Source of the DNA: Deltaproteobacteria bacterium
GTDB taxonomy: Bacteria > Desulfobacterota > GWC2-55-46 > JADFVP01
NCBI GenBank assembly: GCA_029262515.1
Contig: JAJCZH010000002.1
Coordinates: 81,023 to 145,022, forward strand
Reading direction: 5' to 3'
DNA: 64,000 bases
Shown: piece by piece, positions 8,834 to 30,128 of the stretch
Numbering within the stretch: position 1 is the first letter of the stretch
How the letters are laid out: each line of letters starts with the position of its first letter
The notes under the pieces: model-generated
What the model saw: the letters and a program-made list of their open reading frames with translations, nothing else
The model's database searches: none
What the model was told of the DNA's origin: nothing
Position numbers and translations under genes: made by a program

Positions 8834-9997
8834 TTAAAGAGGGATTTCAATACTGTAGATCGGGTAAGCAATCGGTTCTCTGTTCTCATAACCGATTGCC
8901 TTTTTACGTTTTTCATCGAGAAGGTGGTATCGGATGGTAACGTCCAGTTCCTTTGGAGGGTTATTGTCGTGTTTGAATTCAAAGATATACTCTCTCGGCA
9001 AGCCGTACGGAAGGCGTGTGTCTTTTAGGTCGATAATAAAGGGTCTCCACAGTATGTATCTTTTCATCTTATAAGTTTTTTCTTTTATAACCCTGCTCTC
9101 CCTGTCGAGCAGCCTCAACTCCAAGGTAAGGTATCTGTCTGGGGTGCCGGTGGGAAGATAATGGGCGGCACCGGTATTTGTAAGGGTAAAAATAAATTTT
9201 GTCCGGTTCTCGTCTTTTTCAATCTCCTTTCTGTACTTAACCTGCAAAGCGCTCCTTACCATCTCAGAGTGGTGTCCGCCCCTGAAAAGATGTTGTCTTC
9301 CTTTCCGCTCTTTTGTTCCCGTTGCCACCGGTCGCCTGATCTCCGGCATGTGGCAGCCAACGCAATTCGGCTCTTGGGCGCCCTCTTTTATCTCTGCCAC
9401 GGTTCCGCATGGAGGTATCGAGTAAAATGTGTCCCACCTGTTGCCGGAAACTACATGGCACCTCTGGCAGGGTTTCATGCCGGAAGTCATACCGGGGTCA
9501 ACGGTTACGGGGTGAGGAGCGTCGGTCGTTTCATAGGGCCCTACTATTCTACCCTCTTTTACATGGCAGACGGCGCAGGTCACGCCCTCATCCCTGAGGT
9601 CGGCATCGGAGTTCGGATTAGGTCCTAAAATAGGATCGAATTTGCCCCTGTCCTTGAACCCGAGAACAAGCTCTTTCTGCTGGTTCTCCAGCGGGGTATG
9701 GCAGTTCAGGCATATCTGCTTTGAGTCGTCATAAACAAAGTCTATCTGAAAGTACGGGTCTTCCCATGCCATAGCATGCATGCTTCCGGACCATTCTTTG
9801 TATATCTCTACGTGGCACCTGCCACACTCTTTGGCGCTTATAGATCGCAACCCCTGCGGGATCTCGACATGGATCGGCCGTTCGAATTTTTCATCCACAA
9901 CAAATATGTTTATTGGACGAAGAAAACGCCAGGCGAAGAAGGATATTATTAATAACAGGGTGATGGTGAGGGTTTTTTTGGCGCGGGTATTTTTCAT
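8834..9997 (-). CDS. Membrane-anchored pentaheme c-type cytochrome, cytochrome c554-like
   Basis: Five CxxCH (CGRCH, CLNCH, CAVCH, CQRCH, CVGCH); N-terminal TM segment; ECGRCHVEIYKEW. Confidence 0.9.
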   Translation of the reverse strand: MKNTRAKKTLTITLLLIISFFAWRFLRPINIFVVDEKFERPIHVEIPQGLRSISAKECGRCHVEIYKEWSGSMHAMAWEDPYFQIDFVYDDSKQICLNCHTPLENQQKELVLGFKDRGKFDPILGPNPNSDADLRDEGVTCAVCHVKEGRIVGPYETTDAPHPVTVDPGMTSGMKPCQRCHVVSGNRWDTFYSIPPCGTVAEIKEGAQEPNCVGCHMPEIRRPVATGTKERKGRQHLFRGGHHSEMVRSALQVKYRKEIEKDENRTKFIFTLTNTGAAHYLPTGTPDRYLTLELRLLDRESRVIKEKTYKMKRYILWRPFIIDLKDTRLPYGLPREYIFEFKHDNNPPKELDVTIRYHLLDEKRKKAIGYENREPIAYPIYSIEIPL

Positions 9998-23336: not shown

Positions 23337-24581
23337 TTAATCGATTAGCTGAAAGGCTTTTCTGTAAAGCAGGTATTCGGAGGTGAGAGTCGCCCTGTAG
23401 GCCTCCTTATACATCTTAACGCTGGAGGACTGCTCTTCCGGTCTACCCTTTTCCATTCCATTCAATATCGATGCGAAGAAACGGTTATAGAACTCGTCCG
23501 GTTTTACTACAACCTCGAAGACCAGTTCCGCGGCTCGAAGCGCAGGTGGTGGCGAGTAGGCAAACTCGAATTTTTCATCCGGCGCTATCCTAGTGTCGAA
23601 GAGCTCTTCCGAGAGGTCCAGCGCAATTCTCCGGCCTATAGTTACAGTAGACCGGCTCGCTTCTATTATATTCCCCTTTTGATCCAGTAAAAACCCGGTG
23701 ACAGTAACGCTCGGCGTGACATAGGTCGGAAACATGTGGCCGACCCCGGTATTGGTTATCGTGAGAAGAGCTTCTACTCTCTTATTCTTGCTTTTGTTGT
23801 TGTAGTTAGCTTTTATATCGAGACCGGAGAGGACCATTTCTGGGTAGTGTATACCTTGCCACAGGTGGCGCCTGCTCGGCATGTGGCACATCTGGCAGGT
23901 TACGCCGCTATCGGCATAACGGCTCTCTTTCCATTCGTTATACGTATTGGTTAGAACGCGCCCGTTAAGTTCGTAACCGGCGTCGAGCTGGTGGCAGGCG
24001 GCACAGAACTCGGCGCTTGAGAAGAAACTCTTCTGTTCTGTATGGTGCCCGGCCTCTGTTGTCTCAATAGCTGAAGGGCCTTCCGGGCCGTAGACAACGG
24101 ATTCTCTCAGGTGGCACGCTGCGCAGCTTATGCCCGTTGTCTGAAGTTTTTTGTCAAAGGCCGGGTTTATGCCGTACCCGTCCTCCTCTTTTACTGCTTC
24201 ACTCTGTTCAAGCAGCGGTGCGTGACATCTGTAGCAGGAGGTAGCAAAGCCCGGAGACTCGATAGGTGAGAGCTGGGCGAGAAGGCCCGGCCCGACACTT
24301 CTGCTGTGTAGAGATGTAGACCACTCTTTGTACTTTGTGCTGTGGCAGGTACCGCACTCTTTCGGATAAGGCGCCGGGTTTATCTTAACAGTATCCGAAG
24401 GTTTATTTTGCCCGTTATTTACAGCGCGCGCCGGGCGAGTCCAGTGGTATTGTAGCGCCTTAACCTCACCCGCGCCGTTGCCCTCGGCAAGGGCAACGGG
24501 CGGAGCAAGAGAGAGCAGAAGAAGGGAGAGGGTCATTGTTATTGAAAATAGAAGGTTCAAGGGCAGTTTTACCTTCCGCAT
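23337..24581 (-). CDS. Secreted pentaheme c-type cytochrome, c554-like
   Basis: Five CxxCH (CGTCH, CYRCH, CAACH, CAACH, CQMCH); signal peptide MRKVKLPLNLLFSITMTLSLLLLSLAPPVALA; start set at internal ATG 24581 (ORF extends to 24617). Confidence 0.88.
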   Translation of the reverse strand: MRKVKLPLNLLFSITMTLSLLLLSLAPPVALAEGNGAGEVKALQYHWTRPARAVNNGQNKPSDTVKINPAPYPKECGTCHSTKYKEWSTSLHSRSVGPGLLAQLSPIESPGFATSCYRCHAPLLEQSEAVKEEDGYGINPAFDKKLQTTGISCAACHLRESVVYGPEGPSAIETTEAGHHTEQKSFFSSAEFCAACHQLDAGYELNGRVLTNTYNEWKESRYADSGVTCQMCHMPSRRHLWQGIHYPEMVLSGLDIKANYNNKSKNKRVEALLTITNTGVGHMFPTYVTPSVTVTGFLLDQKGNIIEASRSTVTIGRRIALDLSEELFDTRIAPDEKFEFAYSPPPALRAAELVFEVVVKPDEFYNRFFASILNGMEKGRPEEQSSSVKMYKEAYRATLTSEYLLYRKAFQLID

Positions 24582-25270
24582 GGGTTCTTGAAACTGCACG
24601 GGTTTTTCATTGAGCAAGGGTTAGATGCCCCGCAAGGATTAACGGAACAGGGGTTTGCCGAGCAGGGGTTGACAGCACACGGGTTCTTCATGCTGCACGG
24701 ATTGGCATGACCTGAGTGGTTTGCGACATAGGCTGCAAGTCCCGTCATCTTCTGCGAGTTCCATTTGAGAGGCCTGCCGGCCATTGGGTTTATCATGCAG
24801 AAGTTTATCATCTGATCGAGGGTCAGTATGTCGTTAGCCATCTTTATGTACTTGGGATACGGTTTTGCATTGAGCAGCGCTCCGCCCGGATGGCAGGTTG
24901 AGCACGATGAGCCGCTTTTGCCAAGCGTAGAGTCAACCCAGAGCCTCTCACCTCTGTCGAGAACGCTTTCGTAGTCGGTTAAACGCCACTTTCTGATGGG
25001 GCTGTTGCCGGACGAGTCCTTCATACTGCAAGGATTCTTAACGGCGCAAGGGTTCGCACATGGGTTCTGCGTTGCACACGGGTTTGAACAAGGGTTCGCA
25101 CATGGGTTCTTCATTGCGCATGGGTTTGAACAAGGGTTCTTAAAACTGCATGGATTATTTGTCTGTTCGGCTTGGGCAACTGAAACAATGGAAGTGCTGA
25201 AAATGAAGGCTGCTACTACTAAAACGGTAACCATCAGCGCTATGGGCGCTATTTTCCCAATACTTCGCAT
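24569..25270 (-). CDS. Monoheme c-type cytochrome flanked by Cys-rich NPC repeats
   Basis: Signal peptide; 9 NPC motifs, one CSTCH heme site with LTDYESVLDRGERLW...GGALLN..MTGLAAYVANHS core, then 8 NPC motifs. Confidence 0.9.
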   Translation of the reverse strand: MRSIGKIAPIALMVTVLVVAAFIFSTSIVSVAQAEQTNNPCSFKNPCSNPCAMKNPCANPCSNPCATQNPCANPCAVKNPCSMKDSSGNSPIRKWRLTDYESVLDRGERLWVDSTLGKSGSSCSTCHPGGALLNAKPYPKYIKMANDILTLDQMINFCMINPMAGRPLKWNSQKMTGLAAYVANHSGHANPCSMKNPCAVNPCSANPCSVNPCGASNPCSMKNPCSFKNPCGR

Positions 25271-29480: not shown

Positions 29481-30128
29481 GTGGTCATGAATAACAAGAG
29501 GCTTTCACGAACCTGTAAAGCCTTACTCTTCGTATGTTCGTTAACACTGCTCTTGTTCGTAGCCCAAAACGCCAATGCCACCAGCATTTTAGAGATTGAG
29601 CCAAATAACTCTTTAGCCGGGGCGCAGAATATCGATGCGGACTTCTCAACCGGAGCTAACGCCGATATCATAAATTCCGTCACTAACCCGTGGGTATCGA
29701 TAAGCGGTACCGGAGACGGCACATTCGATTACTACTCTTTTACCGTGGCCAATGCCGGTGATACCGGTATCTTCGATATCGACTACGGGATTAGTTCCAT
29801 CGGTTCTATGGATACTGTAATAGAGTTGTATTCAATTAGCGGTGGCGCCCCTATCGCTTGGAACGACGATGCCTCTACCTCAGATGGAGCAGGCGGCAGT
29901 ACTTCCTTTCTCGATTCTTATCTATCACATACATTTGCATCGGCAGGCACATATGTAATAAGTGTTTTAGAATTTCCCAATGTCGCCCCAAGTGCTGAAA
30001 AAGCCTATACGTTGCAGGTTTCTATTGAGAACCATGCCACTTCAGCGGTTCCGGAGCCTTCTATGCTGCTTCTGCTCGGAAGCGGACTTGTAGGCCTCGG
30101 GTATGTGAGGAGAAGATTCAAGAAGTAA
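29481..30128 (+). CDS. PEP-CTERM sorting-domain exported protein with DVUA0089/PPC-like domain
   Basis: Signal peptide; EIEPNNSLAGAQNID; FDYYSFTV..DTVIELYS; C-terminal VPEPSMLLLLGSGLVGLGYVRRRFKK; RBS aaggag. Confidence 0.93.
   Translation: MVMNNKRLSRTCKALLFVCSLTLLLFVAQNANATSILEIEPNNSLAGAQNIDADFSTGANADIINSVTNPWVSISGTGDGTFDYYSFTVANAGDTGIFDIDYGISSIGSMDTVIELYSISGGAPIAWNDDASTSDGAGGSTSFLDSYLSHTFASAGTYVISVLEFPNVAPSAEKAYTLQVSIENHATSAVPEPSMLLLLGSGLVGLGYVRRRFKK

Follow-up and report, generated by a model that had tools for sequence, protein, structure and literature searches.

Asn-Pro-Cys arrays on a SoxA/TsdA-fold cytochrome and their association with a pentahaem cytochrome gene

In TsdA, the intermediate of the reaction is carried by Cys123, a ligand of the haem, and thiosulfate is bound by Arg109 and Arg119; the target of SoxAX is a Cys within a peptide co-substrate (PMC4423706). 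Among multihaem cytochromes, the ExtKL/PHC group has been discussed for Geobacter and cable bacteria (PMC11976967). The two overlapping genes described here, located in a window of 64,000 nucleotides (the whole stretch of DNA that was analysed), resemble these two systems in their folded parts, and the first of them adds arrays of Asn-Pro-Cys (NPC) units for which no model was found in Pfam or NCBIfam as searched. In the literature searched, the pairing of an NPC array with a pentahaem cytochrome is undescribed, and CdeC is the sole relevant published NPC repeat.

An NPC-array cytochrome and its pentahaem neighbour

The preliminary description had read the first gene as a one-haem (CSTCH) core bracketed by 17 NPC motifs, and this count is exact for the 233-aa ORF (9+8 = 17; Table 1), with NPC units starting at residues 39, 45, 49, 55, 59, 63, 69, 73 and 79 (n=9) on the N-terminal side and at residues 190, 196, 201, 206, 211, 217, 223 and 229 (n=8) on the C-terminal side. 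The 17 units are encoded by 11 different 9-mers, in which AAC and AAT are mixed and all four CCN codons as well as TGC and TGT are used. The pattern NPC-x(1-4)-NPC gave 24 matches in the 2.5 Mb genome, all confined to three exported ORFs, compared with 0 matches in a reversed control of the same genome, and thus occurs beyond chance. On C5 the same genome encodes a paralogous cytochrome with 12 NPC, and on C7 an NPC protein rich in His and Met. The haem-regulatory Cys-Pro motif is not applicable as an identity of the repeat because the order read in NPC is Pro-Cys.

Table 1. Features of the two-gene locus (positions in the window)
Feature	Position	Strand	Basis or remark
Pentahaem cytochrome, ExtKL/PHC-like, five CxxCH and C-terminal beta domain	23337..24581	-	overlaps NPC gene by 13 nt
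NPC-array monohaem cytochrome, 233 aa	24569..25270	-	ORF
Signal-peptide-like N-terminus, residues 1-34	25169..25270	-	sequence reading; helix 8-28 in AlphaFold model
N-terminal array, 9 NPC units, residues 39-81	25028..25156	-	motif count; unstructured in model, pLDDT ~40
SoxA/TsdA-fold cytochrome c core, residues 91-187	24710..25000	-	PF21342, SoxA 1h31 match, model
Haem c motif CSTCH, residues 123-127	24890..24904	-	Cys, Cys and His invariant in 42 sequences
Met144, invariant, at TsdA Arg109 position	24839..24841	-	alignment, 42 sequences
Met154, invariant, at TsdA/SoxA Arg119 position	24809..24811	-	alignment, 42 sequences
Cys158, aligns with TsdA haem-ligand Cys123	24797..24799	-	profile alignment
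C-terminal array, 8 NPC units, residues 190-231	24578..24703	-	motif count; unstructured in model

The AlphaFold model of the full-length protein is poor (pLDDT 51), with both arrays unstructured, and the core modelled by itself reaches a pLDDT of 93. PF21342 (SoxA/TsdA cytochrome c) matches residues 106-186 (9.6e-15, 54.8 bits against a cut-off of 27). Searched against the PDB, a 26-row profile of the core found SoxA of R. sulfidophilum (1h31, 8e-13), aligned to its first haem domain, and TsdA (0.003); in a Foldseek search with the core model the best 13 PDB matches were all TsdA or SoxA (1h31_A with TMq 0.74 and rmsd 2.1). Cys158 is kept in at least 90% of 42 aligned rows (it is Tyr in L026), and the core haem is probably ligated by His and Cys. 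Met occupies both the Arg109 and the Arg119 position of TsdA in 42 of 42 members. The core thus belongs to the SoxA/TsdA family by its fold, but catalytic features of the thiosulfate enzymes are missing from it. The protein has a single CxxCH, with neither a second haem domain nor a SoxX partner, and the gene coupled to it encodes a pentahaem cytochrome.

That an exported monohaem cytochrome stands beside a pentahaem cytochrome, as had been proposed, is borne out by the signal-peptide-like N-terminus, the one CxxCH and the 13-nt overlap with the partner gene, whose likely ATG (24581) falls within the 3' end of the NPC ORF. The closest solved relatives of the partner are MccSep and T. tepidum c552; against the ExtKL equivalog (NCBIfam NF040886) it scores 58.2 bits, below the cut-off of 250. 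The Sec325 position of MccSep is not conserved, and in that segment the pentahaem proteins carry a conserved GH-x-FPTY-x-TP. Non-haem Cys are absent from 15 of 18 pentahaem sequences, so that a covalent disulfide link between the NPC arms and the pentahaem protein is unlikely. Elsewhere in the window, a second five-CxxCH cytochrome (8834-9997, minus strand) shows weaker matches to the same multihaem families and has no adjoining NPC gene, and an exported protein with a PEP-CTERM-like C-terminal tail is encoded at 29481-30128 (plus strand).

Distribution, linkage and constraint of the arrays

NPC arrays and the pentahaem gene occur together as a conserved and closely coupled module. Among 59 relatives the core was found in 27, the pentahaem gene in 27 and both in 25. 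Strict arrays are present in 24 of the 59, every one of which (24/24) has core and pentahaem gene, and in none of the 32 relatives that lack the core (Fisher 1.4e-13 for the co-occurrence across the 59 genomes, a value that ignores phylogeny). Core genes without tails are confined to G016 and G035, both of one genus, and these two are also the sole genomes that have the core but no pentahaem gene. The pentahaem gene without core was seen in G055 and, at a contig edge, in G025. Within 394 genomes of the phylum, G249 is the sole genome outside the class with true arrays and it, too, has the pentahaem gene; pattern matches in G262, G353, G449 and G450 (outside the class) and in G011:C43 yielded no resembling NPC-array protein. 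At L095 (G011:C43:2617-2777) there is a tandem DNA repeat of about 17 nt reading AACCCATGC, which we rejected as an NPC protein array because it does not stay in one frame.

Where a locus extends far enough, the pentahaem gene mostly lies downstream of the NPC cytochrome gene on the same strand, and 24 of 25 measured pairs overlap or are at most 68 nt apart (262 nt in the remaining one). Distance matrices for the NPC cytochromes and for the pentahaem proteins, compared at 26 loci, are correlated (r=0.88, 0 of 2000 permutations). Pentahaem genes are not adjacent in the Tectomicrobia loci and at the paralogue in the own genome.

As the preliminary description had envisaged, NPC tails are not limited to the cytochrome, but are also borne by other exported proteins encoded beside multihaem cytochromes. 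In G249 arrays flank a beta-type domain without Pfam match, encoded divergently adjacent to the pentahaem gene, and in G057 NPC flanks surround an SMBP-like metal-binding domain (PF16785, 6.4e-7) whose gene overlaps the pentahaem gene. In addition, several loci encode core-less NPC proteins with Lys-rich linkers immediately upstream of the NPC cytochrome, and the NPC member at L093 ends in a membrane-anchor-like tail. Since it is found on beta-domain, SMBP-like, core-less and paralogous proteins, the NPC array behaves as a module; its presence on non-haem cores and core-less proteins also suggests that what the pentahaem cytochrome essentially pairs with is the array rather than the monohaem. 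Another core-less NPC protein (L181, G249:C31) lies near genes that by eye encode thioredoxin-like and glutaredoxin-like proteins and an apparent YeeE-type transporter.

The homologue set comprises the relatives and 36 named genome loci, all metagenome-assembled, with records labelled Deltaproteobacteria, Nitrospirae, Nitrospinota, Tectomicrobia and Mariprofundaceae/Zetaproteobacteria. Nearly all homologues bear arrays, mostly of 2 to 35 units, and the number of NPC-type Cys ranges from 0 to 35. The arrays, for which a lineage-specific expansion had been considered, are not such an expansion, as they are found on homologous cytochromes in several phyla. The repeat can be written as Asn-Pro-Cys-small-small/Met-Lys, with HPC or QPC variants of the unit in L015 and L027, and the distance from Cys to Cys is irregular (3, 5, 6, 7 or 8, mostly 6, 5 or 3). 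Spacers consist of 30% Ala, 25% Lys and 12% Met (background 2.3%), with about 1% acidic residues. In 473 in-array NPC units, 666 codons depart synonymously from AAC-CCG-TGC compared with 19 degenerate units, a count that misses decayed end units as the array blocks are bounded by NPC itself. This indicates that the amino acids Asn, Pro and Cys, to judge from their codons, are selected under strong constraint. Conservation of the Cys across orthologues therefore has two sides: the N-P-C unit is kept under heavy synonymous drift, whereas number and position of the units are not fixed.

Neighbouring genes vary more widely. Crp/Fnr regulators are encoded at 10 loci, and DsbD/CcdA, thioredoxin-like or rhodanese genes near some loci of several phyla; thiol-redox neighbours are mildly enriched (11/180 vs 3/197, p=0.03), with query genes that were chosen from near matches. 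The MtrB/PioB porin of Mtr-type outer-membrane conduits was found in 4 of 19 genomes and is absent from G000. The NPC paralogue at L164 (G000:C5:78500-88500) is accompanied by a Crp/Fnr regulator, a 193-aa ORF, a PiT-type transporter and an ArsM-like methyltransferase, a gene set that recurs near the module at L065. The ArsM-like/PiT neighbourhood is repeated in few genomes only, for which reason a link to arsenic was given little weight. At two loci an exported rhodanese gene directly follows the pentahaem gene (L139:2829-3215 and L147:2709-3080, both plus strand); it has an in-frame TGA after YCT/YCS, its nearest NCBIfam model (below cut-off) is a rhodanese-related (seleno)protein, and it likely encodes a selenoprotein. 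Upstream of the NPC gene, L075 and L067 show a respiratory-type run with a bd-oxidase-like protein, c-type cytochromes and an ethylbenzene-dehydrogenase-domain cytochrome.

Possible roles of the Cys/Met-rich arms

The explanation that we favour, albeit tentatively, is a two-gene module for extracytoplasmic electron transfer in which the Cys/Met arms serve the pentahaem cytochrome by thiol or thioether chemistry. The first gene would provide a one-haem cytochrome of SoxA/TsdA fold that extends two flexible, cationic, Cys/Met-rich arms, and the second an ExtKL-like pentahaem cytochrome, for which the arms would act as a multivalent thiol/thioether partner. Soft metal(loid) ions, sulfur species or thiol reducing equivalents might be held by the arms near the haems, where this cargo would be reduced or oxidised, and the monohaem core would relay electrons instead of oxidising thiosulfate. 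Fold, gene coupling, co-occurrence and constraint are shown by the data; the redox state of the arms, what they bind and which way electrons would flow are inferred. With somewhat less assurance, we consider it possible that the NPC array is a thiol arm of modular kind that is joined to exported cores unrelated to one another. Such arms would serve a widespread pentahaem family as a dedicated partner for soft-metal or sulfur binding or for thiol redox, and would represent a new thiol-haem class in several phyla.

The chief rival, which we regard as unlikely, is a disulfide-linked scaffold, in which NPC arms would cross-link with one another and with core-less NPC proteins and so keep the cytochromes together in a layer at the surface or in the periplasm. 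The thiols of an exported array might just as well be locked in disulfides, the variable spacing and number of units fit a cross-linker, and both the core-less proteins encoded directly upstream in several loci and the membrane-anchor-like tail of L093 are in line with such a layer. Moreover, CdeC, the one published NPC repeat found, self-assembles in a partly disulfide-dependent manner (PMC7677010). However, pure cross-linking predicts neither the enrichment of Lys and Met nor the association with an SMBP-like domain, some arrays are very short (2-4 units), and the pentahaem partner offers no free Cys for linking in 15 of 18 sequences.

A Sox/Tsd-like sulfur chemistry, by which a SoxA-type haem would load sulfane sulfur or thiosulfate onto the NPC Cys so that the arms function as SoxY-like carriers in cis, appears distinctly improbable. 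The fold and the ligand Cys are those of the SoxA/TsdA family, SoxAX acts on the Cys of a peptide co-substrate (PMC4423706), and rhodanese and DsbD-type genes occur near some loci. Nevertheless, Met replaces the thiosulfate-binding Arg109 and Arg119 of TsdA in every member, within SoxA it is the first haem domain, not the catalytic domain, that the core matches best, and arrays exist without a SoxA/TsdA core. In addition, SoxY was undetected in 19 of 19 genomes, in a search that lacked a positive control, as no control genome gave a match either.

The preliminary description had also suggested that regularly spaced Cys might form a scaffold for Fe-S clusters or an additional thioether-bound cofactor. 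The CxxC spacing created by NPCNPC in many members from Nitrospirae, Tectomicrobia and Zetaproteobacteria would suit such a defined site, but a precise scaffold agrees poorly with the irregular spacing, with Cys numbers from 0 to 35 that include Cys-poor members, and with arrays for which AlphaFold predicts no fold, and we consider it very doubtful. A neutral, functionless low-complexity expansion, which would account for recent local duplications (42-nt copies, 90% identical) and for the long stretch of identical NPCAA units in L080/L025, can practically be discounted, since NPC is kept under synonymous drift (666 codons vs 19 degenerate units), spans several phyla with a strong purifying pattern and co-occurs tightly with the partner gene.

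With the two-gene electron-transfer module as the favoured explanation, the NPC array provides a definable marker, and the two genes a conserved pair, for a proposed electron-transfer system of uncultured bacteria from groundwater and the deep sea. They raise the question why thiol arrays so consistently accompany a pentahaem cytochrome. Arms that bind metal(loid)s or transport thiol electrons would tie thiol chemistry to multihaem electron transfer, a connection for which no description was found in the papers or family libraries consulted.

Comparison with known systems

The partner resembles the ExtKL/MccSep/PHC family in its five CxxCH and C-terminal beta domain, and differs in that it scores below the ExtKL cut-off, does not keep the Sec of MccSep and lacks non-haem Cys in 15 of 18 sequences. 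The likeness to SmbP (PF16785) is confined to one NPC-flanked protein beside a pentahaem gene, which has an SmbP domain. To our knowledge, classical SmbP is without NPC arrays.

The exosporium protein CdeC of C. difficile shares the NPC repeats (6), the richness in Cys and a redox-dependent self-assembly (PMC7677010). In contrast to the NPC cytochromes, it is a Gram-positive spore-coat protein with no haem or multihaem partner as described, and the likeness noted here is one of repeat motif.

Fold, CxxCH and the Cys aligned with the haem-ligand Cys connect the NPC cytochrome with SoxA and TsdA (PF21342; PDB 1h31, 4wq7), from which it is set apart by one haem, Met in place of the active-site Arg, long NPC arms and a different operon; against the NCBIfam SoxA model it scores 49 bits, compared with a cut-off of 110. 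Core and partner are therefore of known fold, and what is new to the families and papers searched is the NPC array and its pairing with a pentahaem cytochrome.
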